Part shown: positions 18,361-40,075 of the stretch, in pieces
Layout: every line of letters begins with the position of its first letter
Position numbering within the stretch: the stretch's first letter is position 1
Assembly (NCBI RefSeq): GCF_013752535.1
Contig: NZ_CP058348.1
Span: 1,736,001-1,800,000, forward strand
Origin: Bdellovibrio sp. KM01
Lineage (GTDB): Bacteria > Bdellovibrionota > Bdellovibrionia > Bdellovibrionales > Bdellovibrionaceae
Direction: 5' to 3'
Length of the DNA stretch: 64,000 nt
Notes under the pieces: model-generated
Told to the model about the DNA's origin: nothing
Seen by the model: the letters and a program-made list of their open reading frames with translations, nothing else
Databases searched by the model: none
Made by a program: the position numbers and the translations under genes

Positions 18361-19232
18361 TGAAGGGAATCATCTTAGCTGGCGGCTCGGGAACGCGTCT
18401 TTATCCTGCAACGACTGTGGTCAGTAAACAGCTTTTACCGATTTACGATAAGCCGATGGTTTACTACCCATTGACGACTCTGATGATGGCGGGGATTCGC
18501 GATATTCTGGTTATTTCCACTCCTCAGGATACTCCTCGCTTTGAACAGCTTTTGGGTGATGGCTCGCAGTGGGGGATCAAAATCTCTTATGCGGTACAGC
18601 CTTCTCCGGATGGTTTGGCTCAAGCATTTATCATTGGTGAAAAGTTTATTGATGGTGATGAGTGTGCTTTGGTTTTGGGTGACAATATTTATTATGGTCA
18701 CGGCTTCATGCAGCTACTTAAAGAAACTGCGAAACAAAAAACTGGTGCGACGGTGTTTGCAATTAAAGTTCCAGATCCTGAAAGATACGGCGTTGTTGAA
18801 TTCGATAAATCTTTTAACGCAGTTTCTCTTGAAGAAAAGCCAGCAAATCCTAAATCCCACTATGCAGTAACGGGTCTGTATTTTTACGACAAGCATGTCG
18901 TTGAATATGCAAAATCACTTAAGCCTTCACCAAGGGGTGAACTTGAGATTACGGATCTAAATCGTATTTATCTAGAAAAAGGCAACCTGGATGTTCAAGT
19001 GATGGGTCGCGGTTTTGCGTGGCTTGATACTGGAACACACGAAAGTCTTCTTGAGGCGAGTATGTTTATTCAAACGATTGAAAAGCGTCAAGGAGTGAAG
19101 ATTGCGGCGCCTGAAGAAGTTGCGGCTCGTATGAAGTACATCAACAAGGAGCAACTATTGAAACTTGCTGAGCCCTTAAAAAAGAATGCATACGGCCAGT
19201 ATCTGATTCAGCTTAGCCAAGAACTTGAGTAA
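18360..19232 (+). CDS. rfbA: glucose-1-phosphate thymidylyltransferase
   Basis: Makes dTDP-glucose from dTTP and glucose 1-phosphate, supplying RfbB. The 290-residue protein carries [20 protein letters not shown] (residues 8-27; nucleotide-binding loop with the catalytic Arg and Lys), [19 protein letters not shown] (metal-binding Asp), and [20 protein letters not shown]. Length is normal for RmlA. It shares a one-base overlap with both rfbB upstream and the GT39-like gene downstream, so all three should be co-translated. Confidence 0.95.
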
Positions 19233-20782
19233 TGGATAAATTGGATTCTATATCCTCTATATTAACTAACTTTGTTCTGGTTTTAATTATTGGAGGTTGG
19301 GCTCAACGTTACCAACCTGTTCGTTTCTTTTTTAAGAAACTTTTGGTGGTCGTGTTGTTTGCCTGCCTAGGCTGGCATTTAGTAACAGCTTTAGCCTACC
19401 TTTGTGTGCCTCAATTCTTCGATCATGTAGAATTAAATATTGCAGCGGTTGCTAGTATCTGGAGGCTGGGAAATCCAATTTATACGCTACCGGATGCTGC
19501 CTCCAGATATTCATTATTGTATGGGCCCTGGCCCTATTTGGTGAATGCCGGCTTTCAATCCTTGGGTGGCTCCGTTTATTTCTTAAGCAAGCTTCCTGGT
19601 GTTTTGAATTTCTTCATTTTGTTTTCGGGATTTTACCTGACAATCAGAAAGCTGAATCTGTTTGATCGTTTGCTCAGCATGGGTATGTTGAGCAGTGTCC
19701 TGTTGGTATTTTACCATTTCAGTTATTGGAATCGACCTGATTCCTTCCTGATGACCTATGCTTTTCTGGCGCTGATGCTCGTTGTCTACAGTGAAAAGGT
19801 CGGAGATCTGGCGACTTATTTGGGAGTGGGGCTTCTTTGCGGATTGGCTGCGAATTGTAAGATTCATGGAGTCGTTTATTTCATTCCGCCAGTGGTTTAT
19901 TATTTTGAAAAATCAGGGAGAAAGATCAATTGGTCTTACCTGTTTTTTGGTGCCTTGCTTGCTGTCGCAGGACTTTTGTTGCCGTTTTTTCTTAAAAACG
20001 TCGGAGAAGAGAACTACCTCGTCTGGCTTAAGCTTGCTTCCAAGCATGGTCTTGATGCTCTGGATTTTGTTAAGACCACAACATTCATTTTTTGCTTCTT
20101 GCTCTTCCTGTTCTTGTTGAAGTTTCATAAGCAGTATCGTTGGACGTATTTATCGTTGTGTATCACCGGATTTCTGGTGGCGATTGTTGCCAGTAAGCCT
20201 GGGGCCGGTACACATCACTTTATGCCATACGTTCCGGCAATAATATTCTTTGCAGTAACAGCGTATTTCGACACTCCAATTGAGGAACGACGTCGTTTGA
20301 ACTACATTTTGGCGGCGTTTGTGATTTCAATGGGTTTGGAAGCTCATCATAGGCAAAGGCGTGTGGTTAAAGAGTTTGGACAAACCAAAAAGGCGAAAGC
20401 TGAGCTTCGAGAGTTTGAGAAACTGCTCAAAGAAACCTCTGGTCCGGTTGAAATGGGTTACTCCAATAGCGATTCTTATGGTGCCACTTTCTTTAGGCTT
20501 GCAGCTATTGCTGGGAAGCGCGCAGGTTTATTGATCGAGGGATCCGCACTCATGGATATGAACGCTAGTGGCTTAAGTATTCCTGATGCAACTTTGGTGG
20601 CTATTAAAAATTGTCAAATTCCAACTTTCGTATTTCCGAATGAGGGAAATCCTTGGGACATCACAAGTTACTACACGCAAAGGCCATTGTATCCCCAGGA
20701 ATTTAAGGATGTCTTTGCTGAGAAGTATAAAAAGGTCCTCGAAGGTGAATACTATGTCATATACAGTTGCATAAATAATTAG
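19232..20782 (+). CDS. multi-pass membrane glycosyltransferase, GT-C type
   Basis: A 516-residue integral membrane protein with about ten hydrophobic segments. The first outer loop contains FFDHVELNIAAVASI and NPIYTLPDAASRYSLLYGP, a pattern of GT-C enzymes in which an acidic residue before the first long loop is catalytic. The C-terminal ~130 residues are hydrophilic (periplasmic or cytoplasmic domain). It fits the GT39/DUF2029 type of polyprenyl-phosphate-sugar-dependent transferase, but no strict family motif is present. Its ATG overlaps the rfbA stop by one base, linking it to dTDP-sugar synthesis. Confidence 0.7.
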   Translation: MDKLDSISSILTNFVLVLIIGGWAQRYQPVRFFFKKLLVVVLFACLGWHLVTALAYLCVPQFFDHVELNIAAVASIWRLGNPIYTLPDAASRYSLLYGPWPYLVNAGFQSLGGSVYFLSKLPGVLNFFILFSGFYLTIRKLNLFDRLLSMGMLSSVLLVFYHFSYWNRPDSFLMTYAFLALMLVVYSEKVGDLATYLGVGLLCGLAANCKIHGVVYFIPPVVYYFEKSGRKINWSYLFFGALLAVAGLLLPFFLKNVGEENYLVWLKLASKHGLDALDFVKTTTFIFCFLLFLFLLKFHKQYRWTYLSLCITGFLVAIVASKPGAGTHHFMPYVPAIIFFAVTAYFDTPIEERRRLNYILAAFVISMGLEAHHRQRRVVKEFGQTKKAKAELREFEKLLKETSGPVEMGYSNSDSYGATFFRLAAIAGKRAGLLIEGSALMDMNASGLSIPDATLVAIKNCQIPTFVFPNEGNPWDITSYYTQRPLYPQEFKDVFAEKYKKVLEGEYYVIYSCINN

Positions 20783-20839
20783 CATCTTTCGCGGGAGTTT
20801 CACATTGCAATTTCAAGGGACGAGGATTAGGTTTTTTGC

Positions 20840-21667
20840 ATGATTTACGACTGTTTTGCCTTTTTCAATGAGCTGGATTTACTAGAGATTCGTTTGAACA
20901 CGCTAAACGATGTAGTAGATCGTTTTGTTTTGGTCGAAGCGACACGAACATTTCAAAAGAAAGAAAAACCACTCTTCTTTGAATTGAACAAAGAACGTTT
21001 TAAGCCTTTCTTGCATAAAATCGAACATGTCGTCGTGGATGAATATCCGAATTTCTTTTCTAAATGGCGTGTTCCAAAAACGTGGGACTACGACGATCAT
21101 CAAAAAGAAGGTATTTTACACGGGTTGAAAAAATGTCAGCCGAACGACGTGATTATCGTTTCGGATGTTGATGAAATTCCTCGTCCTGAGCTTGTTCGTG
21201 AGTACGCTAGTAAGCCGGGCGTTAAAGTATTTCAGCAAAAACTTTACTATTACTATTTAAACTGTTTCATCAAAACATATCCAGAACCAATTCCATTGGT
21301 TGATGGCTATATGCCTTGGTACGGAACTGTCATGTTGAACTATCAAGACATCAAAACGATCAAGAAAACACGTTTATACCGTGAAACTCGTCAAAATACG
21401 GATTTGGTGACAATCGTTCCAAATGGAGGCTGGCATTTCAGTTATCTTGGCGGCGCTAAAAAGGTGATCGAAAAGATCGAGGCGTATGCGCACAAAGAAC
21501 ACAATCGCGATGAGTTCAAGGATCCAAAAAAGGTTGAAGACATCATCCGTAAGGGTGGCAGTCTTTATGGGGATAAGCTTGATTCACAATTTGTGAAGAT
21601 TGATGACAGCTTTCCGAAATATGTTCGCGATCAAAAAGCAAATCTGTCTGAGCTTATACTGGAATGA
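20840..21667 (+). CDS. family 17 glycosyltransferase (GlcNAc-transferase-like)
   Basis: The 275-residue protein matches GT17, the family of eukaryotic bisecting beta-1,4-N-acetylglucosaminyltransferase III. It begins MIYDCFAFFNELDLLEIRLN, has FVLVEATRTFQKKEKPL and the metal-binding VSDVDEIPRPE (residues 107-117), and later GGWHFSYLGGAKKV. Bacterial GT17 proteins occur in surface-glycan clusters; donor and acceptor are unknown here. GAGGATTAGG upstream of the ATG gives a ribosome-binding site. It lies in the rfb plus-strand run. Confidence 0.85.
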   Translation: MIYDCFAFFNELDLLEIRLNTLNDVVDRFVLVEATRTFQKKEKPLFFELNKERFKPFLHKIEHVVVDEYPNFFSKWRVPKTWDYDDHQKEGILHGLKKCQPNDVIIVSDVDEIPRPELVREYASKPGVKVFQQKLYYYYLNCFIKTYPEPIPLVDGYMPWYGTVMLNYQDIKTIKKTRLYRETRQNTDLVTIVPNGGWHFSYLGGAKKVIEKIEAYAHKEHNRDEFKDPKKVEDIIRKGGSLYGDKLDSQFVKIDDSFPKYVRDQKANLSELILE

Positions 21668-21726
21668 CGCCATTCTTAATTTAAAGCGAGTTGATTTGGC
21701 ATGCTATTGAAAGTTAATATTAAGCC

Positions 21727-22893
21727 GTGAAACATATTGTATTTTTAGCGGAACATTTGTCTTTTGGGGGCGCCGAGCGCGCTCTTGTCGAGATTTTGAA
21801 TCACATTGATACTCAAAAGTATAAAGTCACTTTAATTATTAGAGATGACTTTGGTGAAGATAATTACCTTCTTAAACTTGTACCGAATGCGGTCCAGGTC
21901 ATGTTTCTTTATAAGAAGGAAGAAAAGTATATAAATAAAAAGAATTTAAACTGTTTCCAGAGATTCCATAACTATCTCCGTAAAAAGTTTCCGAAGTATG
22001 ATTTAAAAATCCGTTTTGATGAAGCGTTTGATCTAATTGGTCATATCGATTTAATTATCGACTTCACTTCCGTACTTATTAAGCAAGCGTACTATTTCCG
22101 TCGGTATAGAAAAGTATATTGGATCCATGGTCCAAAAACACACATGGATAGAATCGAGCTTGCAAAATTCGGAATGCGTTTAAGAAGTTACGACTTGGTA
22201 GCCGCTGTAAGCGGACATCTAAAGGCGGAAGTTGAACAATTAATTCCTCGACTGCGTGGTCACGTCGTTACGCTATACAATCCATTTGATTTTTCTAGAA
22301 TTGCATCCAGCTCCGTCGATGAAACCGAGCTTTCCCCCGATGATCTAAAGCTACTCAATGAACGATATATTCTGGCGGTGGGGCGTTTTGCGCTCGAAAA
22401 AGACTATCAGAATTTGATCAAAGCATTTCAGATTTTGAAAAGTGAGGGTGTTAACTACAAGCTCTTTATTATCGGAGACGGAACTGAAAAGGGAAATGTT
22501 GAAGAGTTCATAAAGAAGAATGACATGGCTAACGATGTTATTCTACTAGGGCGCAGGAAAAATCCCTATATTTGGATGAAGCATTCTATTCTTTTCGTTC
22601 ATTCTGCAAATGTGGAAGGCTTCGGGCTAGTCATTGTTGAAGCGATGGCATTAGGAAAAGCAGTAGTGGTTACTGACAGTCCAGTTGGTCCACGTGAGAT
22701 CTTGAGTAATGGTGACTACGGCGTTCTTGTTCCGCCAAAAAATCCTGTTGCTATGGCGGAAGGAATTAGAAAGCTAATTAAAGATCCCGGGCTTATGAAC
22801 GAGTATCAGGAAAAGTCACTGCAGCGGGCGGGACAATACTCGACAGATTCCGTTATGCCTGAGTTGTATAAAATGATTGATTCATTAGTCTAA
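21727..22893 (+). CDS. family 4 glycosyltransferase
   Basis: A 388-residue GT-B enzyme starting at a GTG. The N-terminal half has HLSFGGAERALVEILNHID, the glycine-rich motif of GT4; the C-terminal half has ILAVGRFALEKDYQNLIKAF, IIGDGTEKGNV, and NVEGFGLVIVEAMALGKAVV with the donor-binding E-x7-E pair. TTGATT (21691-21696) and TAATAT (21715-21720), 18 bases apart, could be a promoter with its start point almost at the GTG, which would make a near-leaderless message; this is weak evidence. Sugar specificity is unknown. Confidence 0.87.
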   Translation: MKHIVFLAEHLSFGGAERALVEILNHIDTQKYKVTLIIRDDFGEDNYLLKLVPNAVQVMFLYKKEEKYINKKNLNCFQRFHNYLRKKFPKYDLKIRFDEAFDLIGHIDLIIDFTSVLIKQAYYFRRYRKVYWIHGPKTHMDRIELAKFGMRLRSYDLVAAVSGHLKAEVEQLIPRLRGHVVTLYNPFDFSRIASSSVDETELSPDDLKLLNERYILAVGRFALEKDYQNLIKAFQILKSEGVNYKLFIIGDGTEKGNVEEFIKKNDMANDVILLGRRKNPYIWMKHSILFVHSANVEGFGLVIVEAMALGKAVVVTDSPVGPREILSNGDYGVLVPPKNPVAMAEGIRKLIKDPGLMNEYQEKSLQRAGQYSTDSVMPELYKMIDSLV

Positions 22894-22905
22894 GGATGGC
22901 TGTAT

Positions 22906-24069
22906 ATGATCAATCGGAATAGAGAAATATCTAAGTATGCTTTTCTATTCGTTGTTGTTGCAGCCTTTATTAGCAACATCCTGAAACTCGTAGCAAGACC
23001 AACAACAGGATGGGATCACGATATATATTGCAAGGCTGCCGAAGCTTGGAATGCGGGTCTCGATCCATTTATCACTGAAAATCTTGGTTTAAAACTGTCG
23101 TATACTTATCCAGTGCTGTTTCTTTCTCTTTACCAGTATGTATGTGGCATTAGATTTGTATTTATATACATAGATGCGTTACTGCTTATTGCCATAACGT
23201 GGCTTTTGGTTAGAAAGCTATCTAGTGATTGGGTGATTGCAACGCCGTTTATGTTGTTGGGATATAATTCTGCATATTCGAATGTTGAATCTGGAAACCT
23301 AGGCATTATCGAAGCATTTCTATTAGTTTTGGGGATAGTCGCAGCGATCAATCATAAGAAATGGTGTTCGCTATTTTTAGTTCCGATGTCCTTTTTAAAA
23401 GTTGTCCCGGCGGTTATGGTAATACCTTTATGGCTTTCCAACATTAAGTGGAAGGACCGTTTCGTACAGGTTTTCATATTTATTTGTGGGGTAGGAAGTT
23501 TAGTTTTTGCAAACTACTTTCTTTCTCCAGGTCTGTTCTTTTCATTTATTAAGCAGGCGACGGGTGGATATTCGAATCAGCACAGTCCCATTAGTGAGAT
23601 GGATTCGAATGCATCGAATCCAACGGTTATTATATTTTTAAAAAATCTTTCCATTATGATTTACAGTCAATTTTGGTTGCCAGTATTCTTGATCTTTATT
23701 GTAGGGTTGGGTTGCTTAACTTATTGGGTTTGGAAAAGTACGATTCGATTTGAAAAGGAGCCACTTTATAAAATATGTTGGAGTTATCTCCTTATTTTGT
23801 TATGGATTCCTCGCCTTAAGCCCTACGCTCTGATTCTTCTTTGTGTGGTAATGGTGCCGATTTTATCAAAACTGCCTAAGAGGTTTTCTATTTCAATTTT
23901 ATTGCTGACGATTTTTCACCGTGTCATTAACGGAACCAAAACGAATCCTTGGTGGGAGCTCATTTCAAATAACACGGCGATTTATACGATGATTGCCGTT
24001 CTGATTCTTATGACTCTTCGTTGGCGCGAACATCGGTTTTCAATTGCTTCGACTGCTGAAGCCAAATAA
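22906..24069 (+). CDS. GT87 (DUF2029)-like membrane glycosyltransferase
   Basis: A 387-residue polytopic protein. After the first helix it shows RPTTGWDHDIYCKAAEAWNAG, the GT87 pattern in which an acidic residue before a Y/C-x-A stretch lines the active site; LDPF and NVESGNLGIIEAFLLVLGI follow, as in polyprenyl-phosphate mannosyl/arabinofuranosyltransferase-like proteins. About ten hydrophobic segments are evident. Family members use polyprenyl-phosphate sugars, which fits the arabinose-donor genes ~2.4 kb downstream (inference). Its last 62 bases overlap the end of the convergent membrane-protein gene. DNA here looks richer in A+T than the rfb genes. Confidence 0.72.
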   Translation: MINRNREISKYAFLFVVVAAFISNILKLVARPTTGWDHDIYCKAAEAWNAGLDPFITENLGLKLSYTYPVLFLSLYQYVCGIRFVFIYIDALLLIAITWLLVRKLSSDWVIATPFMLLGYNSAYSNVESGNLGIIEAFLLVLGIVAAINHKKWCSLFLVPMSFLKVVPAVMVIPLWLSNIKWKDRFVQVFIFICGVGSLVFANYFLSPGLFFSFIKQATGGYSNQHSPISEMDSNASNPTVIIFLKNLSIMIYSQFWLPVFLIFIVGLGCLTYWVWKSTIRFEKEPLYKICWSYLLILLWIPRLKPYALILLCVVMVPILSKLPKRFSISILLLTIFHRVINGTKTNPWWELISNNTAIYTMIAVLILMTLRWREHRFSIASTAEAK

Positions 24070-25156
24070 GTAACTGCAGTCCTGCGATAGCCGCACACCA
24101 CGCAAAAAATCTCTGATAGTAAGCTGGAAAAAGGGTCATGTGTGCTAGCACGAACCCTGTAATAATAGCAACAAGCCCGTTTGCTTCCAGTGATTTTCTG
24201 TTTCTTTGAAGTTTGAGCCATCCAAAGATGAATAACGCGAAAATGATAAAATGCTTATGCCCAATCATAGTGCTAAAGCCATTTTTATATGCCTCAAGGT
24301 AAGGGGCAATTTCTTTGTGAACATCCATTTCTGCCGGTAATGGATTGTTTGCGATCAGTGTAAAATCAAAAACCTTCAGGTATCCATAGTTTGGAAAAAG
24401 TTTATTAACTAAAAAATATACAACTAGGGGTAGAACAAAGAACAGCGAATGCTTTAATTTGCGTTCAGTCCACAATAGATAAGCAGCAATGAATGCTGGT
24501 AAAATAATAAAGTCCGTTCTGATAGCTGGCAGTATCGTCAGTGGCAATACTGCCCACAAACTTCTTTTCATCGCTAATAAAAGGCCAAGCACGGCAAATA
24601 ATGCCGTTGTTCCATCAGGCGTAGAGAAAGTAGATAGCTCCATAAATCCAGCGATTTTTAGGACATACGGGAAAAGTAGTAAAATCCAAAGCAAATTGGG
24701 TGTCAGTAAAAAGAAAAGAATAAAAATAGTTAGAGCGGTAAATGTAGCACTTACGACATAAGTTGCCTGAGCAAATGAAATTGAGAAATTCTGCGAGACC
24801 GTTCTAATTGCCTGAAGATATACCACTCGTCCTTGATAAAAAGGAATTTGTTGGGTTAGCGCTACGTCGTTGCTATAAATGGTTTTACGATAGTCATTTT
24901 CTTCGGTGAGTGCTCTAAAAGTTTCCGTTGAAGTGTGGGCCTTTACTTCTGCAAATGTTCTTTCGAGAAGCTTCTGATCACGTAGTCCTTCGTTGTAATG
25001 AAGAGTCGCAACATAACCGATTACATCCCAATTCATTTCCGGTTTCACAATGCCGCAGACCAAATAAAAAATCGCGATGGCTGCTCCGAACAGTAGAGCA
25101 ACCTTCCTTTTGACAGGAGTCATCGCAATAATTTTAAGCCTTGCTGATAGTTTCAT
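24008..25156 (-). CDS. multi-pass membrane protein, possible GT-C glycosyltransferase
   Basis: About 382 residues with eight or more hydrophobic segments. The first outer loop has KPEMNWDVIGYVATLHYNEG, where an Asp after the first helix resembles GT-C catalytic loops, but no family-specific motif is seen. It begins 23 bases inside the end of the O-antigen ligase-like gene (an internal ATG at 25123 is an alternative start) and ends overlapping the convergent GT87 gene. Context points to transfer of a lipid-linked sugar; the call is tentative. Confidence 0.6.
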   Translation of the reverse strand: MKLSARLKIIAMTPVKRKVALLFGAAIAIFYLVCGIVKPEMNWDVIGYVATLHYNEGLRDQKLLERTFAEVKAHTSTETFRALTEENDYRKTIYSNDVALTQQIPFYQGRVVYLQAIRTVSQNFSISFAQATYVVSATFTALTIFILFFLLTPNLLWILLLFPYVLKIAGFMELSTFSTPDGTTALFAVLGLLLAMKRSLWAVLPLTILPAIRTDFIILPAFIAAYLLWTERKLKHSLFFVLPLVVYFLVNKLFPNYGYLKVFDFTLIANNPLPAEMDVHKEIAPYLEAYKNGFSTMIGHKHFIIFALFIFGWLKLQRNRKSLEANGLVAIITGFVLAHMTLFPAYYQRFFAWCAAIAGLQLLIWLQQSKQLKTDVRANEES

Positions 25157-26384
25157 CTGTTACTTTCGTGTAGTTCAAGTATCCAAAAGCGGTGCCTAGG
25201 ATAAGGAATAGGTAATTTCGACATTCTTGCAATCTAAAAGGAGTGTCAGTCAACGAAGAAATCATAAATGCACATAGTACGAGAAGTCCGCCTAGAGCTA
25301 CTTTTTGTTCTGGGCCTGAAGATCTTTTGAATGTTTTATAGAAATAAATAAGTCCCATTACTAGTGTCGCTAAATAGCTCACAAACCCAATGATGCCCGC
25401 TCCGGACAAAATCTGAAAATATTGATTGTGTGCATTTCCGACGACCATAGCATCACCATAACCTATAGCTTTGTAGTATTCAGGGTAGAACTTTGCAGCT
25501 CTTTCTAGTCCGACTCCAAAAATCGGGTGATCTAAAAAGATGTGCCAGTTTACTTTCCAGGCTATTAAACGACTTACTTGGGCTCCATTTGTTGAAGTAT
25601 CAAATGAATAGAGAATTCTGTCTTGGATTCCTAGGGTGTTCGTAAAGAACGCGACAACGGCCATGATAGCCATGCCTAAAGAGGCTTTCAGCATTGCCTT
25701 ATGTTTAGTTAATACAAGCGAAATAAATGTGGCTGCGATTGCACCAATCCAAGATGTGCGTGAATAGGTCGCCATTAAAGCTATTGTAACTGACAAGAGG
25801 CTTACTGATGCAAGAATTTGGTTAGTGCGTACTTTCTCGTAAAGTAAATTAGCTAGAATGTAAGACCAAATCAATATAAGCGCTAGTGCTAGGTGGTTCG
25901 TATTGTCGAAATGGCCCTGTAGTCTTTTATCAAAATTGATAAAGGTATTCGTATCGAGATAATGTTTTGTAAATAGATAGATCATGCAGATCAAAATGAC
26001 GATATACGAGAATTTGAAGTCGATCTTGGTTTCATGAAGTTTGAAGCCAATATAAACACAGGCGTAAAAAGAAAATACCCATCGCAATGCTAAGACATTC
26101 TTTAATAAGTTGTCCGTAGCTGGAGTGCCGAAAAAATATCCTAAAGCAGAAGCCAGTATGAATACGATCACAAAAATGTTGAATGTATTCCATGTCAGAA
26201 AGAATTTACGATTCCAAGTCGGATTTCTTTGTTTAATAGCTTCAGCAATACCGACAATGAAGGCCAATGTGAAAATAATGTCCACTGCGTGATAATTCAA
26301 TAAATCCAGAACAATCCCTAAGTTAATGAGGACTAGCCAGAAAAGGGACGACTTAGGGGGAGTTTTTGTTAGTACTGTTGTCAT
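25134..26384 (-). CDS. O-antigen ligase/polymerase family protein (WaaL/Wzy type)
   Basis: A 416-residue protein with about eleven hydrophobic segments and the Wzy_C/O-antigen ligase core: TYSRTSWIGAIAATFISLVL (arginine-bearing helix end) then the large outer loop with HPIFGVGLERAAKFYPEYY and VVGNAHNQYFQILSGAGIIGF. The NAHNxxxxxLxxxGxxG motif with its histidine is typical of WaaL ligases, which attach polymer to lipid A-core, and of some Wzy polymerases and protein O-oligosaccharyl transferases. Sequence alone does not separate these. It is 10 bases downstream of the DprE2-like gene on the same strand. Confidence 0.8.
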   Translation of the reverse strand: MTTVLTKTPPKSSLFWLVLINLGIVLDLLNYHAVDIIFTLAFIVGIAEAIKQRNPTWNRKFFLTWNTFNIFVIVFILASALGYFFGTPATDNLLKNVLALRWVFSFYACVYIGFKLHETKIDFKFSYIVILICMIYLFTKHYLDTNTFINFDKRLQGHFDNTNHLALALILIWSYILANLLYEKVRTNQILASVSLLSVTIALMATYSRTSWIGAIAATFISLVLTKHKAMLKASLGMAIMAVVAFFTNTLGIQDRILYSFDTSTNGAQVSRLIAWKVNWHIFLDHPIFGVGLERAAKFYPEYYKAIGYGDAMVVGNAHNQYFQILSGAGIIGFVSYLATLVMGLIYFYKTFKRSSGPEQKVALGGLLVLCAFMISSLTDTPFRLQECRNYLFLILGTAFGYLNYTKVTDETISKA

Positions 26385-26394
26385 GAAAAATACT

Positions 26395-27132
26395 TTATAG
26401 ACTTAGTTTTTTGAAAATAGATTCTGGAATGGAGCAGATAATCCACATGATATAGCGCCAAAAGAATGGAAGGTAGACTGTATTCTTTTTCTTTTCGATT
26501 GCGGTAACTATCCCGGCACCCACTTGAGGAGCTTTTCCGAAAAGAGGTCCTTTTTTATGGTCTTTAGTCATTGGCGTATCGACAGGGCCTAATTTCAAAT
26601 TTAGGACATGAACCCCTGTTTTGAAAAGCCGATTTCTCAGCCCGTCCACATACGCCGTCATTCCGGCTTTAGCTGATCCATAGACATAGTTAGACTGTTT
26701 GCCACGATCGCCAGCCACTGACGAAATAACGGCGATAGTACCATGACCTTGATGAATCATCTCTGTTGAGATAAATGCCAGTAAAGAGGCGTGGCTAACA
26801 AAATTGCTATTTAGAAGCTTGAAAAGCTCCGACTGAGTCGTTTCAGCTTTTCTTGGGTCACCTAAGACTCCATGGGCTAAAAGTGCGATGTCTATTGTTT
26901 TTGAGTCTTTCCAAATATTCGTAACGAATTCCTCGTGGCGAGAAAAGTCATTTAAATCATGAGCAATAACTGAAACCTTGCTAGCGCCGCGAACTGTGAG
27001 GTCTTGGGAGATTGCTGTTAGCATCTGGGAGTTTCTCCCCCATAAAATCAATTCGTGCTTTTGAGTTGCATATATTTTTGCCACTTCTTGTGCAATTGCT
27101 GATGTGGCACCAATGATTAGGATCTTTTTCAT
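26395..27132 (-). CDS. SDR, DprE2-like keto-reductase of the lipid-linked arabinose pathway
   Basis: A ~245-residue classical SDR with MKKILIIGATSAIAQEVAK (NAD(P)-binding), LLAHGVLGD, an active-site serine in VISSVAGDRG, and YGSAKAG (YxxxK). In mycobacteria DprE2 reduces the 2-keto intermediate made by DprE1 to complete the conversion of polyprenyl-phospho-ribose to -arabinose. The ATG at 27132 is preferred over 27147: GGAGA lies upstream and the ATGA overlap with the DprE1-like gene implies coupling. The DprE1-like and HAD-UbiA neighbours support this role; by itself the SDR could be a general reductase. Confidence 0.82.
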   Translation of the reverse strand: MKKILIIGATSAIAQEVAKIYATQKHELILWGRNSQMLTAISQDLTVRGASKVSVIAHDLNDFSRHEEFVTNIWKDSKTIDIALLAHGVLGDPRKAETTQSELFKLLNSNFVSHASLLAFISTEMIHQGHGTIAVISSVAGDRGKQSNYVYGSAKAGMTAYVDGLRNRLFKTGVHVLNLKLGPVDTPMTKDHKKGPLFGKAPQVGAGIVTAIEKKKNTVYLPFFWRYIMWIICSIPESIFKKLSL

Positions 27133-28433
27133 CTTACACGTCTCCAAAAACTAGATGAGAACTTAGGATCGATATGCTTTTCGAAGCTTTCGATCTGAGG
27201 ATAAAATGTTGAGAAACTTTGTTTCGACATCCGCGCATCCTTCGCTGGATAAACGGAACCATTCGCAGATCTTACGATGCTGTCGCAAGTTTCAAGTACT
27301 TTTAAAAGGGAATCCCCATAGTTTGCAAAATCCAATGCCAGCGTGACGCCTTCTTTCGGAAATGACATAAGGCCTTCGGGTTGAAGGTTTCCAAAAGTCT
27401 TTAAGACGGCAAGGAAGGAACCCATTTGAGATTTTTTTAATACTTGAAAAATTTCATTAAGAGCGGCACCCGCGTCGTTTTTGTAAGGAACAACAAATTG
27501 ATACTGTAAGAATCCACGTTTGCCATAGATGCGATTCCAGTTATGAATTGAATCTAATGGATAAAAGAAAGGTTCATAGTGGACTAGTCCCGCTTTGTGT
27601 GACGAAATATTTTTATGAAAATACAGTTCGTTGAAAGCGCGGATTGAAAAGCGATTTAATGTTTGTTCGGGTAAGAAAACGGGAACATTTTTAAGGCTTT
27701 TTTCTTTGTGAAGTTTAAAATTATCTTCCGATTGAGCATTCGCGAAGTTTCCACGAATGAAAATACCTCTGACATCTGAGCTGCTAACGCAGTCTACCCA
27801 TGAAACCGTATAGTCGAAATTCTCTTCGGACTCTTCGGCAATTGCAAAAAAATCATTCAAATTGTGATATTGAATTTGTTCCTGGTCGACCCAAGAAGAA
27901 TCGATTTTGATCAATTGAAACTCCGCCCATGTGATAAAGCCGGTAAGGCCTAAACCACCAATCGTTGCTTTAAACAACTCTGGGTTACTATTCCTTGAGC
28001 AAAGAAGGCGCTCACCCGTCGAGCGGAGAAGTTCAAACTGAGTGACGTGATTACCAAAGTTGCCAGATTTGTGATGATTCTTTCCGTGAACGTCATTTGC
28101 GATTGCGCCGCCCACAGTGACGAATTTAGTACCCGGGGTGACGGGCAAAAACCATCCTTTGGGTACAGCCAATTTGATGACATCCTCAAATGTAACTCCG
28201 GCCTCACAACGAATAAGTCCTGTCTCGGAACTAAATGAGATAAACTTATTAAGGTAGTTCGAGCAAATTAATGTTCCGCCGTTGTTAAGGCATGAGTCCC
28301 CATACGAGCGCCCAAGGCCTCTTGGTAAAATAGTAGAATCGGGCAGAGGCAAAGATGCAAAACGACTCTCTAGAGCTTGAGATGCCTGATTTTGTACTTT
28401 TGGGTATAGCCCCCAGCTTGGTAAAAGCATCAT
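27129..28433 (-). CDS. FAD-dependent oxidoreductase, DprE1-like (polyprenyl-phospho-ribose 2-oxidase)
   Basis: A 434-residue VAO-type flavoenzyme. Highly specific DprE1 stretches are present: ILPRGLGRSYGDSCLNNGG (FAD pyrophosphate site, ~36-54), HGKNHHKSGNFGNH, and YGKRGFLQYQFVVP. The catalytic lysine of YTAKD is kept (YPAKD, Lys398). The cysteine attacked by benzothiazinone drugs in the mycobacterial enzyme (GWNICVDF) is replaced: GVTLALDF has Ala366 (codon 27336-27338). It would oxidise the 2-position of polyprenyl-phospho-ribose. Both ends overlap neighbours by 4 bases (ATGA), indicating tight coupling with the HAD-UbiA and SDR genes. Confidence 0.87.
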   Translation of the reverse strand: MMLLPSWGLYPKVQNQASQALESRFASLPLPDSTILPRGLGRSYGDSCLNNGGTLICSNYLNKFISFSSETGLIRCEAGVTFEDVIKLAVPKGWFLPVTPGTKFVTVGGAIANDVHGKNHHKSGNFGNHVTQFELLRSTGERLLCSRNSNPELFKATIGGLGLTGFITWAEFQLIKIDSSWVDQEQIQYHNLNDFFAIAEESEENFDYTVSWVDCVSSSDVRGIFIRGNFANAQSEDNFKLHKEKSLKNVPVFLPEQTLNRFSIRAFNELYFHKNISSHKAGLVHYEPFFYPLDSIHNWNRIYGKRGFLQYQFVVPYKNDAGAALNEIFQVLKKSQMGSFLAVLKTFGNLQPEGLMSFPKEGVTLALDFANYGDSLLKVLETCDSIVRSANGSVYPAKDARMSKQSFSTFYPQIESFEKHIDPKFSSSFWRRVR

Positions 28434-29842
28434 ACGGAAATTCCGAGAATTATAGCTAATAGAGCAAAACAGGCCCAGCTCACTTTATCTTTAACGGCGA
28501 AAACGACAGGATCGTCGTGAACTTCATCACGATTTGTTAATATCCAAATGCGCGAAATCCAAAACAAAAGTACGGGCGTCGAAAACCAAAGGTTTTGGGC
28601 ATGAGTATATAATGCGCGAACTTCTTTACTCTGAAGATAAAGTAAAATTATAAGAATTGAGATAAGGCCTGAGCCAACTCCCAATGATTGGATCATTGAG
28701 TAATCAATTTGACGATAGCCACGGCCATCAATCGTTAGTTTGTTTTTGCTGCGAATGATCTCAGTATAACGTTTCACGCAGGCTAAACTGAAAAAGAATA
28801 AAGTCGAAAAGCTCAGAAGCCATTCTGAAACGGGAACACTCGTTGCCTCTGATCCTGCGAAAATACGTAAAGTGTACATCATTGAAAGGATAATGATGTC
28901 TACAACGACAGACTGTTTTAGGTAGAGAGAGTAAGCAACATTTAGTACCAAATAGGTTGCGATCCAAACTGAGTAGAGGGTTGGCAAGGGAGCCGCGAAC
29001 AGTGCTGATCCCACTAACAAACTTGGAAGCAGGATTAGTCCCCATTTGATCGAAAGATTCCCGGAAGCAAATGGGCGGTTCTTTTTTGTGTGATGATTGC
29101 GATCGGAGTTAAGATCTAAAAGATCGTTAAGGACGTATACGAAAGAGGCCGCAAGGCTAAATCCAGCAAAAGCACAAAGGCACTGGATGATTACATTGAT
29201 GTCGAAAATTTTGTGTCCGGCAAGGGCAGGAAGAAAAACTAAGGCATTTTTAATCCACTGGTGTGGACGCATTTGTTTAACGATTAATCGTAGAGTGCTA
29301 ACTTTGTTATCGTAAATATATTGGGTAGGTTTGTTCAGTTGCTCAATTTTTCTACGTAGTCGGGCAGACGGATTTACTGCAATAATTTCTTGAGCGTCCT
29401 TCCAAATTTTCAAATCTGCTTCATGGTCTCCCAAATATGCAAAATTCTGATCTCCCAAGGCTTCTTTGATAGCGGATAGCTTGCCCGTTCCCTTGTAGTT
29501 TTTATGATCTGTGGATCCAAATGAGCGATTAAAAATATCCAGATGGTTGGCAACGTCCTGTACCCAAGAGTTTGGGCTTGCTGAGGCAAGAACAAGCTCT
29601 TTGCCCTCAGATTTTGCCACCTTCAAAAGATCCAAAACGTTTTGGCGGTATGGTAGGAGTTTGGCTTTTACGGGCACATGATGTGCCAACTTGGTTTTGA
29701 AATGAGCCCTACCTTTAAGTAGCCAGAAAAAACTCTTAATAAACAACAGAGGGCTCATTTTGAACAGGATAACCCATTGCTCGTAAAGCAAATCAGTTTT
29801 TATTAGGCAGTCATCCAAATCGCAAACCATCACATTTTTCAT
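28430..29842 (-). CDS. HAD phosphatase-UbiA prenyltransferase fusion (polyprenyl-phospho-ribose synthesis)
   Basis: A 470-residue fusion. Residues ~1-185 form a HAD phosphatase: DLDDCLIKTD with the two catalytic Asp (8 and 10), LASASPNSWV, and GDHEADLKIW. Residues ~190-470 form a UbiA membrane transferase: RPHQWIKNALVFLP, then YVLNDLLDLNSDR (NDxxDxxxDR, Mg-diphosphate site) and several helices. In the DprE route the UbiA enzyme couples phosphoribose from PRPP to polyprenyl phosphate and a phosphatase removes the 5-phosphate; the fusion would do both. The ATG is followed by DprE1-like and DprE2-like genes with ATGA overlaps. GGCAAGC upstream is a weak ribosome-binding site. Confidence 0.87.
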   Translation of the reverse strand: MKNVMVCDLDDCLIKTDLLYEQWVILFKMSPLLFIKSFFWLLKGRAHFKTKLAHHVPVKAKLLPYRQNVLDLLKVAKSEGKELVLASASPNSWVQDVANHLDIFNRSFGSTDHKNYKGTGKLSAIKEALGDQNFAYLGDHEADLKIWKDAQEIIAVNPSARLRRKIEQLNKPTQYIYDNKVSTLRLIVKQMRPHQWIKNALVFLPALAGHKIFDINVIIQCLCAFAGFSLAASFVYVLNDLLDLNSDRNHHTKKNRPFASGNLSIKWGLILLPSLLVGSALFAAPLPTLYSVWIATYLVLNVAYSLYLKQSVVVDIIILSMMYTLRIFAGSEATSVPVSEWLLSFSTLFFFSLACVKRYTEIIRSKNKLTIDGRGYRQIDYSMIQSLGVGSGLISILIILLYLQSKEVRALYTHAQNLWFSTPVLLFWISRIWILTNRDEVHDDPVVFAVKDKVSWACFALLAIILGISV

Positions 29843-29886
29843 GGTGGCAAGCTTATCTATTCATCTCAACTAGAGCAAGGATCTAT

Positions 29887-29912
29887 AAAGCTCCTCGTTT
29901 AGGGGAGCGAAG
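29887..29912 (-). terminator. probable terminator after the minus-strand GT-like gene
   Basis: On the minus strand GCTCC pairs with GGAGC (29890-29894 and 29904-29908 on the plus strand) across a 9-base loop, followed by TTTAT. It lies 3 bases after the stop of the gene at 29915-30640 and ahead of the HAD-UbiA gene, so the arabinose module probably has its own promoter downstream of it. Confidence 0.5.
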
Positions 29913-29914
29913 TG

Positions 29915-30640
29915 TCATCTAAGGATTTGAATCAACTCATTGATCGGCTGTTCGCAAACAATTCCAAGATCCGCTTCAAGTCTATCGATGCTCGAATCTT
30001 GTAGGCCAATATAGTTAATGGATTTCTTTTGATTGTCTAGAAGAGGAATGATGTTCTCTCTAAAGTAACTTGGTTCAACTATAGCCCCAGCAAGAATAAC
30101 AGTCTCAGTGGGGGCATTTATAATTCTCACAGCAGTTTTGTTGTTAGCCGAGATATCATTCATCAGAATGGTTCTTGAGCTCTCTGTGTCGACTAGCGAG
30201 GGGTGGTTATTTAGGCACACTTCTAGGCTGAATGCTGCTTTGCGTGCATCGAAATTATAATAGGATTTAGGTGTTTGCTCCTGAGCATGCTTGAAAAGTA
30301 TGCATTTACGTGGAGCTTTCATCCCAGCGCAAGCTCTGACGTATTTAAAAATGCATTTTACGATTTGAAGGACTCGTCTTTTTCTACCGGCAGAATAGCG
30401 ATAGAAATCCAAATTTACCAGGTGAAAGAAGGAATTTATTGTGAATCCATCGTTAAGAATAATGTCTTTTGATTCAGTGCTGAATTCAGAAAGGGGTTGA
30501 AACGCGCATCGGTTTTCTGGCCAGCGTTCATTTCCGTAAAGGCGGGCAGGCATCCCCGCATCATTGAGGCTGTTGATAAGGAGAATTTTAGCAAATGTGG
30601 CAATGCTGGGCCCAGTATTTGTGGAAATTAATTTAATCAT
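29915..30640 (-). CDS. hypothetical protein, possible GT-B glycosyltransferase
   Basis: About 241 residues from the ATG at 30640; the frame is open to 30703. No strict motif is recognised. The layout (IKLISTNTGPSIATFAKILL, ILNDGF, VRIINAPTETVILAGAIVEP with SYFRENIIPLL, then YIGLQDSSIDRLEADLGIVC) resembles the two-domain pattern of GT-B enzymes, with the VILAG strand and a C-terminal helix, but the donor-binding E-x7-E segment is missing. It is followed by a hairpin terminator, so it forms a one-gene unit diverging from the GT-D-like gene. Confidence 0.5.
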   Translation of the reverse strand: MIKLISTNTGPSIATFAKILLINSLNDAGMPARLYGNERWPENRCAFQPLSEFSTESKDIILNDGFTINSFFHLVNLDFYRYSAGRKRRVLQIVKCIFKYVRACAGMKAPRKCILFKHAQEQTPKSYYNFDARKAAFSLEVCLNNHPSLVDTESSRTILMNDISANNKTAVRIINAPTETVILAGAIVEPSYFRENIIPLLDNQKKSINYIGLQDSSIDRLEADLGIVCEQPINELIQILR

Positions 30641-30728
30641 GATGCCGTACTCTAAAGCATTATCCTTGTTTAAACTAGAAATTTTGTGTGAGATAATTGG
30701 CAATCTTGGATTTTGCAGCGAGAGCCGG

Positions 30729-31511
30729 ATGAAGAATTTTGAGCAAGACTTTTATAGAATTTTAGATTTGTTGAGGAAGAAAGTTCCTTTTGCGTTCAAT
30801 CGTTTTTCAGACGGCGAGCTTTTCATTTTCCAAAATAAGGAACTAATCTTAGGCGACAACCTCATTAAAATTGGGAATGAAAGTCGAGGCGGTCCTTATA
30901 AGAAAGAGGATCACAAGCATTTCGATCCGAATCAGCATTCTTTCTACCGCGACAGGCTACTGGATGCATTCTTGTTTCGTAAAGATAACTATTTCAAAGG
31001 CATCAGTTGTCGTTGTTGTGTTGGTACTGAGAATTTAAATTGGCAGTTGCAACATTTGCAAGAACCTGCTGACGATCAATTTCTTACTTGGGCCAACCTT
31101 CTCGTAAACGGAAACTATCCGAAATTCATGGCAGAGATGCTTCCGCTTTTTGCGTCCTATCCAACAGTTTTCATCTGTAATGAAAAAGCTGAGTTAAAGA
31201 ATTTGCCATACGTAGTGAAGGATTTCCGGGTCGGATATAATGCGATGATTAATGACTATCATAAAATTGAAGAAATCAAATCTTGGATTGAGAGAAACAG
31301 TATTACAGGGCATCTGTTTCTATTCTCTGCATCTTCATACAGTAAAATGGCAATCCACCAACTTTACGATAAGTTCCCGCTAAATACGTATATTGATGTT
31401 GGCACAACAATGAATGCATTTATGAATATGAGTATTGAGCGTGTCTATTTGGGTGATTACTGGTTTGAGAAACCAAGTCCATCCGATATGTATAAAATAT
31501 GTGTATGGTAA
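30729..31511 (+). CDS. GT-D-fold glycosyltransferase-like protein (DUF1792 type)
   Basis: About 260 residues from the ATG at 30729. FNRFSDGELFIF (residues 23-34) matches the R-x-G/S-D-G-E motif of GT-D transferases, in which the DGE acidic pair binds metal and donor. Later FLFSASSYSKMAIHQLY and YIDVGTTMNAFM resemble the C-terminal half of that fold (a G-x-x-a/s then ..DvGs pattern). GT-D enzymes were first described extending a GlcNAc-Glc glycan on streptococcal adhesins; the sugar here is unknown. The frame is open to 30564, but that extension overlaps the opposite gene's start. It leads a plus-strand run into wzx. Confidence 0.62.
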   Translation: MKNFEQDFYRILDLLRKKVPFAFNRFSDGELFIFQNKELILGDNLIKIGNESRGGPYKKEDHKHFDPNQHSFYRDRLLDAFLFRKDNYFKGISCRCCVGTENLNWQLQHLQEPADDQFLTWANLLVNGNYPKFMAEMLPLFASYPTVFICNEKAELKNLPYVVKDFRVGYNAMINDYHKIEEIKSWIERNSITGHLFLFSASSYSKMAIHQLYDKFPLNTYIDVGTTMNAFMNMSIERVYLGDYWFEKPSPSDMYKICVW

Positions 31512-31545
31512 CAAGGTTAATAAATAAATAGGCTGGTAGGTTTTT

Positions 31546-32430
31546 GTGAAAATCGGCATTTTTTCATTAGGGCAAAAGGGTTTTTCTGTTGTTGAGGCTC
31601 TGTCTAAGTGTCTTAAAGATGGACATACCGTCGTTGTGGTAGTCGGAAAAGATCACAACGTTCTGTCAGATTATTCTCTAGAGACAATTACGTTGTGTGA
31701 AAAGCTTGGATTGAGGTTTGAAGTCGGTAATACGTTTAATATGCAAGCTGAGAATTGTGATTTAGTTTTTGCAGCTGGTTGGAGATGGATGATTCGAGAC
31801 ATTCCTCAAGATATATTGATTGTGTTTCATGACTCACTTTTGCCGAGATATCGTGGTTTTGCTCCTTTAGTGAATAGCTTGCTTAATAGAGAGAGCGAGG
31901 TAGGTGTCACTGCATTATACGGCGGTGAAAAGTTTGATACAGGAAACATTATTGCGCAACAGAGAATGAAAATCGAATACCCGACATTCATTCATCACGA
32001 GATCCAAAGAATTAGCAAAATGTACGGTGAGCTAGCGGCACATGTCTATAATATCATGATTATGCAGAATAATAGACCTTCGGGCGTGGTTCAGAATGAG
32101 GATCATGCAACTTATAGTCTTTGGCGTGATGATGACGACTATCGTATCGATTGGTCACTTGACGCAACTGAGATAGCACATTTTGTTTCGTGTGTTGGTT
32201 ATCCGTATTTGGGCGCTTGTTCTAAAGTCGGAGCCGAAAAATATCGGATTTTGGAGGTCGTAGTTGTTCCCGACGTGAAAGTTGAGAATAGATCAAGTGG
32301 AAAAGTTATTTTTATTGAAAGTGGAATGCCGATTGTTGTGTGTGGATCAGGTTTGCTACGAATCGAGAAGATGGTCAGCGAGGATGGGGAACGCGTTAAT
32401 TGGAATAAAATTAGAACGCGATTTACCTAA
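31546..32430 (+). CDS. formyltransferase-family protein, candidate sugar N-formyltransferase
   Basis: A 294-residue member of the methionyl-tRNA/ArnA formyltransferase family, which uses 10-formyl-tetrahydrofolate. The core reads VFHDSLLPRYRGFAP with His95, VGVTALYGG, and KFDTGNII with Asp131, two of the usual Asn-His-Asp triad. The Asn two residues before the His is Val93 (codon 31822-31824). A sugar N-formylase needs an aminotransferase upstream to make the amine, and none is in the window. The start is a GTG at 31546 (MKIGIF). It lies between a GT-D-like gene and a GT4 plus wzx, so a glycan role is likely. Confidence 0.75.
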   Translation: MKIGIFSLGQKGFSVVEALSKCLKDGHTVVVVVGKDHNVLSDYSLETITLCEKLGLRFEVGNTFNMQAENCDLVFAAGWRWMIRDIPQDILIVFHDSLLPRYRGFAPLVNSLLNRESEVGVTALYGGEKFDTGNIIAQQRMKIEYPTFIHHEIQRISKMYGELAAHVYNIMIMQNNRPSGVVQNEDHATYSLWRDDDDYRIDWSLDATEIAHFVSCVGYPYLGACSKVGAEKYRILEVVVVPDVKVENRSSGKVIFIESGMPIVVCGSGLLRIEKMVSEDGERVNWNKIRTRFT

Positions 32431-32465
32431 ATTGATCCCAGTCCTTGTCGAAAGTTAAAGTTTTC

Positions 32466-33665
32466 ATGAATATTGCAATCGTTTCTTTAGATAATTCGGA
32501 TCGTATTCTCGCTGGTGGTAAGCACGTACATCAGCAGTTGCTGAAGAAGGCTTTGCAGAAGCAAGGTCATTCCGTTTTCATGATCTTTCCCAAAAGAACG
32601 TTGGTCTTTTTGGTTGGAAGAATTATTTTGGCAATTTTGACGAAGTTGCATTTATTAAATCGGTCTTTTAGTTACACTTGGACTCTGAAATGTTATTGCA
32701 AAAGCTTAAGTCGGCAGTTGATGTTAGTATCGCAGGAAATTAATGTGGTGTTTGCGCAAGACCCAGTTTCTGCCGTTGCTGCTGGCCATGTCTTAACGAA
32801 TGCAGTTCCAATGGTAATGACATTGCATGGTTACCTAGCTCGTGAGTCGGTAAACTACGGAAATTATTCAGCAGATGAACAGAAAAAGGTGACTAAAGAG
32901 GCACTTTGGTATGAAAGGGAGTCATTGAAATTTGCTAGAAGAGTGATCACCGTTGACAGCAAAATCAAATCTTACTTATCAGAGTTTTTTGACTCCCAAA
33001 AGCCCGTCACAGTCCTGAAAAATGCAGTGAACCCTGAATTGTTCCGATTACTCGATTCAAACTCGTCTAAGATTCTAAAAAACGAACTTGGATTGCCAGA
33101 AAATAAAGAAATTGTATTAGTGCCGCGTCGCCTGGTTCGTAAAAATGGCGTAGACATCGCAATAAGGGCCTGTGCTGAGTTAAAAAAGAAAAATATTTCT
33201 TATTATTTCGTAGTCATTGGTGGTGGCCCTGAACATTCAAACCTATCCGATCTTATTCGACAACTAGGGTTGTCCTCTGAGGACATTGTTCTGAAAGGAG
33301 ACACGAATCACGATCTTGCTATTAAATATTACGAAGTAGCAGACGTGGTCTTGGTTCCTTCGGTTGTTCGAGATGGGGTGGAAGAAGCTACTTCTTTAAG
33401 CATGTTGGAAGGTATGGCTGCCCGAAAAGTCGTCGTTGTATCTGCGATTGGTGGAATGAAAGAAGTTATCGTTAATAAAATCAATGGATTTTCCTTTGAA
33501 CAAGGAAATGTGGGGGAACTCACTAAACTATTGATTGGTTTGAAAAAACTAACTAACGAAGAGAGGTCCAAAATAGCTGATAGGGGCTACCACGATGTGT
33601 GTGAACACCATCACTACGAAAGACATGCTGAGAGCTACCTCCTGGAATTTGAGAAATCAAAATGA
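32466..33665 (+). CDS. family 4 glycosyltransferase
   Basis: About 399 residues from the ATG at 32466 (a TTG at 32445 is in frame but lacks support). N-terminal MNIAIVSLDNSDRILAGGKH with the glycine-rich HVHQQLLKKAL and LTLHGYLARES are followed by the donor domain: IVLVPRRLVRKNGVDIAIRA, VIGGGPE, and EATSLSMLEGMAARKVVV. In the last motif the first glutamate of E-x7-E is in VEEATSLSMLE. Its stop overlaps the wzx start by ATGA, tying it to flippase expression. Sugar specificity is unknown. Confidence 0.84.
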   Translation: MNIAIVSLDNSDRILAGGKHVHQQLLKKALQKQGHSVFMIFPKRTLVFLVGRIILAILTKLHLLNRSFSYTWTLKCYCKSLSRQLMLVSQEINVVFAQDPVSAVAAGHVLTNAVPMVMTLHGYLARESVNYGNYSADEQKKVTKEALWYERESLKFARRVITVDSKIKSYLSEFFDSQKPVTVLKNAVNPELFRLLDSNSSKILKNELGLPENKEIVLVPRRLVRKNGVDIAIRACAELKKKNISYYFVVIGGGPEHSNLSDLIRQLGLSSEDIVLKGDTNHDLAIKYYEVADVVLVPSVVRDGVEEATSLSMLEGMAARKVVVVSAIGGMKEVIVNKINGFSFEQGNVGELTKLLIGLKKLTNEERSKIADRGYHDVCEHHHYERHAESYLLEFEKSK

Positions 33666-35104
33666 GCAAAAACAGTATCAAAATTAATGTAATTGCTCGA
33701 AGTGTTGTAACAATTGTTGAATTGTTGTTTTCGCTCTTCTCATTTCCTTATGTCGCACGTATCTTGGCACCCGAAAGTATTGGACATATTGATTTCGTCA
33801 ATGCGGCTGTGGCCTATTTTATAACTATCGGTTCATTTGGCGTGGCTGAATACGCGGGCCGAGAGATTGCTCAACACAGAGACGACCTTAACGTGGTAAG
33901 TTCCGTGCTGTCGAAATTTCTTGGATTACGACTGAAACTAGCGTCTGTTTTAATTATTATTTACCTTGTTCTGGTTGTCCCATTTTATGGGCACAACACG
34001 CCGTTGTTTTATTGGTCGACAATTCTTATTCTGACGTCTGCATTCAATTTGGTCTGGGCCTTGGAGGCCTTGGAAGATTTTTCTTATCTAGCAACTGCGC
34101 GTGTTTTATCTAAAGTTGGACTTTTAGTTTATCTTCTTACAATGGTAAGAACCAAAGAAGACGTCGTTACCTATTTTCTGGGAATGATACTGTTCGACTT
34201 CATTTATTATATTTTAGCCGTATTTAGATTGAAGGCTACCTATCATGTGAAGTTTGGCTTAAGGGTTCTACGCGACAAAATTGATACTAGTGAGCTTAAG
34301 AACCTGTTCCGAATATTTATAATGGTGCTTATTCAGGGTTCAATTGCGGGAGTACCTTCTCTGGTGATGGGCCATCTGCATTTGTTCCATGATCTCGGAC
34401 TGCTATCGACAGCTATGAGATTTTTTTGGATGGGCTATTATTGTATTACACCGCTCTCAACGGTTTTACTTTCCAGAAGCATGAGCTTTAAGTCACACAT
34501 TCATAAGAATGAAAGATTTGATCATTTAGATGGAGCTGCATTGTCATTGTTGACTCTTGGTGTGCCAGTGACATTTGGTTTGATTGCGACCGCTGCCGAC
34601 GTAATTCCACTACTAGTCGGTGGAGATTATACTGGATCGATTCTTCTTTTGATTATGCTGTCACCGCTGATTTTGCTTTTTGTATTAAATAATTTCTGGA
34701 GTATGCAGGTCGTTTTTTCTCACAGGGGTGATCGTGCCTTGATTATTTCGAATTCCTGCGGATTGGCGACCGTGATACTGTCATCCGTGATATTGATCCC
34801 CTGGTTAAGCGCGACAGGTGCTGCAATTTCGTATTTTTTGACTTACGCAGTTATGTGTGCAATTCCATATTTCTATGGCCGAGAATATTATCGAATGTCA
34901 GGGGTCGTATTGGATATCGGTAAAACCTTAATTGCTGGTATCGTAATGTGTGCTGCAATTTACTTCATTCAGGCGACGTCGTTTGCCAAATTAGGTGGAA
35001 AGATTGCGATGGGGGTTGGAATATATCTCTTGGTTCTATTTGTCTTCCGCCATCGCATGGTCGTCTCGTTTTTAGACAACTTTAAGAGTGCTAAAGCTCA
35101 ATAA
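33662..35104 (+). CDS. wzx: Wzx-type polysaccharide flippase
   Basis: A 480-residue protein with about twelve to fourteen hydrophobic segments, of the MOP/Wzx family that flips undecaprenyl-diphosphate-linked repeat units to the periplasmic face. The N-terminal LLFSLFSFPYVARILAPESI with IGHIDFVNA is the classic Wzx start (P-Y-x-x-R-x-L-x-P-x-x-x-G), and FGVAEYAGREIAQHRDD follows. A single wzx occurs in this locus, so it probably serves the major polymer. The gene is translationally coupled to the GT4 upstream and its last 14 bases overlap the end of the convergent GT4 gene. Confidence 0.9.
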   Translation: MSKNSIKINVIARSVVTIVELLFSLFSFPYVARILAPESIGHIDFVNAAVAYFITIGSFGVAEYAGREIAQHRDDLNVVSSVLSKFLGLRLKLASVLIIIYLVLVVPFYGHNTPLFYWSTILILTSAFNLVWALEALEDFSYLATARVLSKVGLLVYLLTMVRTKEDVVTYFLGMILFDFIYYILAVFRLKATYHVKFGLRVLRDKIDTSELKNLFRIFIMVLIQGSIAGVPSLVMGHLHLFHDLGLLSTAMRFFWMGYYCITPLSTVLLSRSMSFKSHIHKNERFDHLDGAALSLLTLGVPVTFGLIATAADVIPLLVGGDYTGSILLLIMLSPLILLFVLNNFWSMQVVFSHRGDRALIISNSCGLATVILSSVILIPWLSATGAAISYFLTYAVMCAIPYFYGREYYRMSGVVLDIGKTLIAGIVMCAAIYFIQATSFAKLGGKIAMGVGIYLLVLFVFRHRMVVSFLDNFKSAKAQ

Positions 35105-40074: not shown

Positions 40075-40075
40075 T

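Follow-up and report, generated by a model that had tools for sequence, protein, structure and literature searches.

A predicted route to lipid-linked D-arabinofuranose within a surface-polysaccharide locus of Bdellovibrio

Three adjacent genes in Bdellovibrio sp. KM01 very probably make a lipid-carried D-arabinose that decorates the sugars of the cell surface. They lie in the stretch of 64,000 nucleotides analysed here, which we call the window. By analogy with characterized systems, and from the sequence of the encoded proteins, PRPP would be converted to polyprenyl-phosphate-ribose and then to a polyprenyl-phosphate-D-arabinofuranose donor, from which a periplasmic GT-C enzyme would transfer the sugar to a surface polysaccharide of the same locus. 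We give this reading a probability of about 0.8. The D-arabinose donor pathway is of a known, widespread kind and, as far as could be found, is new for Bdellovibrio predators; we found no paper that treats arabinofuranose and Bdellovibrio together. The features central to the argument are as follows.

19232..20782, plus strand: PMT_2-related GT-C-like protein, second candidate pentofuranosyltransferase (PF13231, 27.2 bits, cut-off 26.1)
22906..24069, plus strand: GT87-like GT-C protein, convergent with the module (PF09594, 30.6 bits, cut-off 25)
24008..25156, minus strand: membrane protein of GT-C-like topology without a Pfam match, candidate pentofuranosyltransferase (first-loop motif, co-occurrence)
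25134..26384, minus strand: Wzy_C membrane protein, O-antigen ligase/polymerase-like (PF04932, 87 bits)
26395..27132, minus strand: DprE2-like SDR reductase (best solved relative M. tuberculosis DprE2, S-x12-YxxxK, tree)
27129..28433, minus strand: DprE1-like FAD oxidase, predicted to carry out 2'-oxidation of polyprenyl-P-ribose (best solved relative M. tuberculosis DprE1, residues)
28430..29842, minus strand: HAD-UbiA fusion, a predicted polyprenyl-phosphate phosphoribosyltransferase with an N-terminal 5-phosphate phosphatase (profiles, solved relative, residues)
33662..35104, plus strand: Polysacc_synt (Wzx/MATE-like) membrane protein, possible flippase (PF01943, 38 bits)

The original prediction described three coupled genes on the minus strand, and their coordinates, strand and joints are all as it gave them: an ATGA overlap is read in the sequence at both module joints (28433-28430 and 27132-27129). 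The DprE2-like open reading frame extends upstream to a TTG at 27147, with an ATG at 27132; because the latter forms the overlap with the DprE1-like gene, we take it as the likely start, giving a protein of 245 amino acids. The Wzy_C gene follows on the same strand 10 bp downstream of the DprE2-like gene and is overlapped in turn by the gene for the 382-residue protein at 24008-25156, which is probably the last of the run (HAD-UbiA, DprE1, DprE2, Wzy_C, 24008-25156). The whole run may be read as one transcript. Beyond the other end of the module lie two divergent open reading frames that overlap by 140 bp (29915-30703, minus strand; 30564-31511, plus strand), both without a Pfam match at an E value of 1.

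The HAD-UbiA protein scores 576 bits against NCBIfam NF006088 (cut-off 351, E 5e-173), and its sole solved relatives are structures of the M. tuberculosis DPPR synthase (8j8j, E 2.7e-28). The source genome encodes five UbiA-family proteins, and the only other match to NF006088 in it reaches 22 bits. The fused HAD domain is recognized by PF12710 (33.8 bits, cut-off 27), and in an alignment of 13 homologues its D8, D10, D139 and D143, which include the nucleophilic aspartate, are invariant, as is the NDxxDxxxD motif of the UbiA domain (N239, D240, D243, D247). By motif, these last four align with N247, D248, D251 and D255 of Citrobacter youngae ORF15, residues shown to matter in that protein (PMC11127046), and R358 and E361 align with ORF15 R366 and E369. 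The protein is thus predicted to be a polyprenyl-P-ribose synthase of the ORF15 type (a PPPRS with a PRP domain) that would use PRPP and polyprenyl phosphate.

The oxidase and reductase likewise have their best solved relatives in mycobacteria. Against solved proteins, the DprE1-like sequence scores 239 bits with M. tuberculosis DprE1 and 47 bits with the next family, cytokinin dehydrogenase; the DprE2-like sequence scores 106 bits with M. tuberculosis DprE2 and 48 bits with the next. Both fall under the strict equivalog cut-offs, as may be the case in distant orthologues: 362 bits against NF053785 (cut-off 500) for DprE1 and 191 bits against NF053786 (cut-off 250) for DprE2, which also scores above the cut-off of NF005489 (287 bits, cut-off 267). 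These DprE1 and DprE2 scores top those of all other families, except for one uncharacterised SDR model in the case of DprE2. The DprE1-like protein keeps the equivalents of Y60, H132, K134, Q334, Q336, K367 and K418, and the DprE2-like protein has the invariant S-x12-YxxxK (S143, Y156-x3-K160, numbered on the 250-residue open reading frame). At the position of Cys387, the benzothiazinone adduct site, the window protein has alanine; of the 12 other Gram-negative rows aligned, 11 share this alanine and one has cysteine. Covalent inhibition of the window protein by benzothiazinones is therefore not expected. To our knowledge Cys387 is not required for DprE1 catalysis and is therefore not family-defining.

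In quick trees made without bootstrap, the DprE1-like rows and M. tuberculosis DprE1 form one group apart from the FAD paralogues of the genome (SH-aLRT 83). In the second tree, for which 16 SDR paralogues from the source genome served as outgroup, M. tuberculosis DprE2 groups with the DprE2-like proteins encoded by relatives of the window and by two proteobacterial plasmids (SH-aLRT 99). The one long-branch warning in the DprE2 tree concerns 11-beta-HSD1, which is placed outside the DprE2 group. Grouping with non-DprE families, which would have spoken against the pathway, was not seen. The profile searches with UbiA, DprE1 and DprE2 models gave family matches that exclude chance, and the proposed correspondence with the mycobacterial route holds in that, among solved families, the mycobacterial enzymes are by a wide margin the best match of all three proteins, which also keep the catalytic residues tested.

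From family membership, catalytic residues and gene order, which are read from the sequence, we infer the identity of the product, the flippase, the transferase and the acceptor. The HAD-UbiA protein would convert PRPP to polyprenyl-P-ribose, DprE1 and DprE2 would together convert this to polyprenyl-P-D-arabinofuranose, the lipid-linked sugar would reach the periplasm through a flippase, and D-arabinofuranose would be attached to the polysaccharide of the locus by a GT-C transferase, most likely that at 24008-25156, that at 19232-20782 or both. The chemistry is borrowed from other organisms in which it has been shown: the first steps from the HAD-UbiA protein of Citrobacter, and the DprE1 and DprE2 steps from mycobacteria. 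A D-arabinofuranose donor, as originally proposed, is favoured by family membership, by residues and trees, by the gene order found in other classes of bacteria and by the HAD-UbiA biochemistry of PMC11127046.

The acceptor is most likely a surface polysaccharide, such as O antigen. The window encodes RmlA, RmlB, an RmlD-like protein, a WecB-type epimerase, a WecA-like protein (PF00953), many GT4 transferases and the Wzx/MATE-like protein, whereas its annotated parts yielded neither a pilin nor a flagellin gene. Surface, pili and flagellum had all been named as possible destinations of the sugar; because the Wzy_C gene follows the module and the locus is of Rml and WecA-like character, we retain the surface polysaccharide and regard pilin and flagellin as less likely targets. 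Use of the same donor to glycosylate flagellin or a type IV pilin, on the model of TfpW in Pseudomonas paraeruginosa, is unlikely: pilin glycosylation with D-arabinofuranose from a related donor pathway is established in that species, and the Wzy_C protein weakly matches a model of putative O-glycosylation ligases (TIGR03097, 63 bits, cut-off 188), but the module lies amid Rml, WecA-like and Wzx-like polysaccharide genes. The Wzy_C protein was considered as an enzyme specific to the module and rejected, as its homologues occur in 18 of 24 genomes of the genus, 11 of which lack DprE1. Elsewhere in the window, three adjacent paralogous genes (37916-40140), two of them nucleotidyltransferase-like by Pfam, stand beside a beta-phosphoglucomutase-like HAD gene.

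Candidates for the transferase emerge from co-occurrence across the genus. The family of 19232-20782 is present at full length in five genomes and that of 24008-25156 in three only, all of them with DprE1, and the union of the two families corresponds exactly to the seven DprE1 genomes among the 24 (Fisher p 3e-6, a value inflated by linkage within one locus, by shared ancestry and by choice of the union after the data were seen). As a control from the same locus, the flippase-like protein at 33662-35104 occurs in only two genomes of the genus. This co-occurrence makes the two families candidate arabinofuranosyltransferases. In the protein at 24008-25156 the first transmembrane helix is followed by a loop with an invariant NWDxIGY, and the first loop of 19232-20782 has an invariant D64xxE67; judged by their sequences, these acidic first-loop residues appear to resemble those of GT-C enzymes. 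Profile searches of the PDB with the two families gave no match, their predicted structures were unusable (pLDDT 43-44), and profile-profile comparisons, whether between the two families or against further GT-C-like proteins, gave nothing significant. A search of plasmids found no homologue of either family, and a distant relative of 19232-20782 is present in a genome without HAD-UbiA.

The GT87-like and other GT-C neighbours in the original prediction do exist, the latter as PMT_2 proteins. The GT87-like protein occurs in three genomes of the genus, all with DprE1, and was rejected as the sole transferase since it is missing from four of the seven module genomes; because it covers three of these seven, against all seven for the union of the other two families, it is not the best candidate. 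For the flippase, a genome-wide search found no GtrA-family protein. The Wzx/MATE-like protein at 33662-35104, whose one other occurrence in the genus is in a module-bearing genome, is a possible flippase of either the repeat unit or the lipid-linked pentose.

Several GT-C-like proteins in one locus would also suit polymerization of the lipid-linked sugar to an arabinan in place of single side-chain residues, as mycobacterial arabinan synthesis employs several GT-Cs. We consider this quite improbable, given that single side-chain pentofuranoses are the precedent in Gram-negative O antigens and that Pfam scans gave no Emb/Aft match among the proteins scanned. Hardly probable at all is an end product that is polyprenyl-P-ribose or a 2-keto sugar, with another role for the DprE1 and DprE2 relatives: two genomes of the genus encode HAD-UbiA but no DprE1, which leaves room for use of the ribose form by itself, but here DprE1 and DprE2 are intact, adjacent and conserved in their residues, and they are co-present in the loci examined.

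The distribution of the module within Bdellovibrio is patchy. High-scoring HAD-UbiA proteins occur in 9 of the 24 genomes, seven of which also have DprE1; two (G013 and G016) have HAD-UbiA alone, and 15 have neither. In G013 and G016 (loci L039 and L042, respectively), HAD-UbiA has as neighbours an acyltransferase and a membrane protein with several helices, which would fit predicted ribofuranose systems like that of C. youngae O1. More widely, 13 of 100 genomes searched, including the source genome, passed the NF006088 family cut-off, and when named genomes were scanned with the HAD-UbiA protein, the only matches were a single Bdellovibrio contig and a distant one. Among plasmid records, 102 carry HAD-UbiA relatives and 89 carry DprE1 relatives.

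Comparison of positions 17296-35104 of the window with the corresponding locus of one relative (L036 of genome G012) revealed flanks that are 87-95% identical (87% at 19232-20782, 95% at 33662-35104) around a module that is 71-77% identical, and in the relative the Wzy_C gene lies on the opposite side of the module. This contrast in identity, together with the moved Wzy_C gene, suggests modular exchange within the locus. In Bdellovibrio sp. MAG_58, a gene for an AAA_14/DUF4143 ATPase lies between HAD-UbiA and DprE1 and splits the module (L037, 10568-11833). We could imagine that Bdellovibrio switch their surface among D-arabinofuranose, ribofuranose and neither by gain and loss of cassettes, and that the two GT-C-like families are new families of arabinofuranosyltransferases; we offer this combined proposal tentatively and at less than even odds.

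The original prediction expected a new glycan feature, and here its novelty must be lowered, as three-component pentofuranose systems have been described as widespread in Gram-negative bacteria (PMC11127046). In C. youngae O1/O2 such a system comprises the ORF15 PPPRS, a MATE flippase and a GT136 GT-C (PMC11127046). The HAD-UbiA reaction has been proven there, and DprE1/E2 homologues were reported in candidate systems with arabinofuranose-containing glycans (PMC11127046). The KM01 module shares with C. youngae a HAD domain N-terminal to the UbiA phosphoribosyltransferase, adjoining epimerase genes, a candidate GT-C partner and a polysaccharide locus. It differs in that epimerization would proceed through DprE1/DprE2 to arabinofuranose, whereas C. 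youngae O2 uses an SDR epimerase to form xylofuranose, and in its partners, which are candidate GT-C-like proteins and a possible flippase in place of the GT136 GT-C and MATE flippase.

With the mycobacterial DPA pathway (Rv3806c, Rv3807c, DprE1, DprE2 and Rv3789), Bdellovibrio sp. KM01 has in common homologues of the UbiA DPPR synthase, DprE1 and DprE2. Unlike mycobacteria, it has its predicted phosphatase as a fused HAD domain, a genome without the GtrA family, no Emb/Aft match in the proteins scanned and alanine in place of Cys387. Pilin arabinosylation in P. paraeruginosa (PSPA7_6245-6251, TfpW; PMC12369383) shares the synthesis of a D-arabinofuranose donor in a Gram-negative bacterium; there, in contrast to Bdellovibrio, the UbiA protein lacks a HAD domain (PMC11127046), the target is pilin and a genomic island carries the donor genes. 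Closest in arrangement are plasmids of Burkholderia stagnalis (NZ_CP156687.1) and Rhizobium tumorigenes (NZ_CP117262.1), where HAD-UbiA, DprE1 and DprE2 occur in the same order as in Bdellovibrio, followed by an SDR/epimerase, an FAD oxidoreductase and GtrA, none of which stands beside the Bdellovibrio module.

What is new here is modest: the patchiness within Bdellovibrio and the two GT-C-like families tied to DprE1 genomes. One more lineage and a set of candidate enzymes are gained rather than a new principle, the pathway having already been described in Gram-negative bacteria. The attribution to a predator stands by way of the genus Bdellovibrio only: G008, a genome placed in the same genus as the source genome, includes a contig identical to Bdellovibrio sp. 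MAG_58 JABWCO010000066.1. Two unstudied membrane protein families can now be named for testing as arabinofuranosyltransferases. If the reading is true, some Bdellovibrio predators would display at their surface D-arabinofuranose, a sugar best known from mycobacterial walls. A defined set of genes would specify it, and species with and without that set could be compared for effects on self-recognition, phage resistance and prey attachment.
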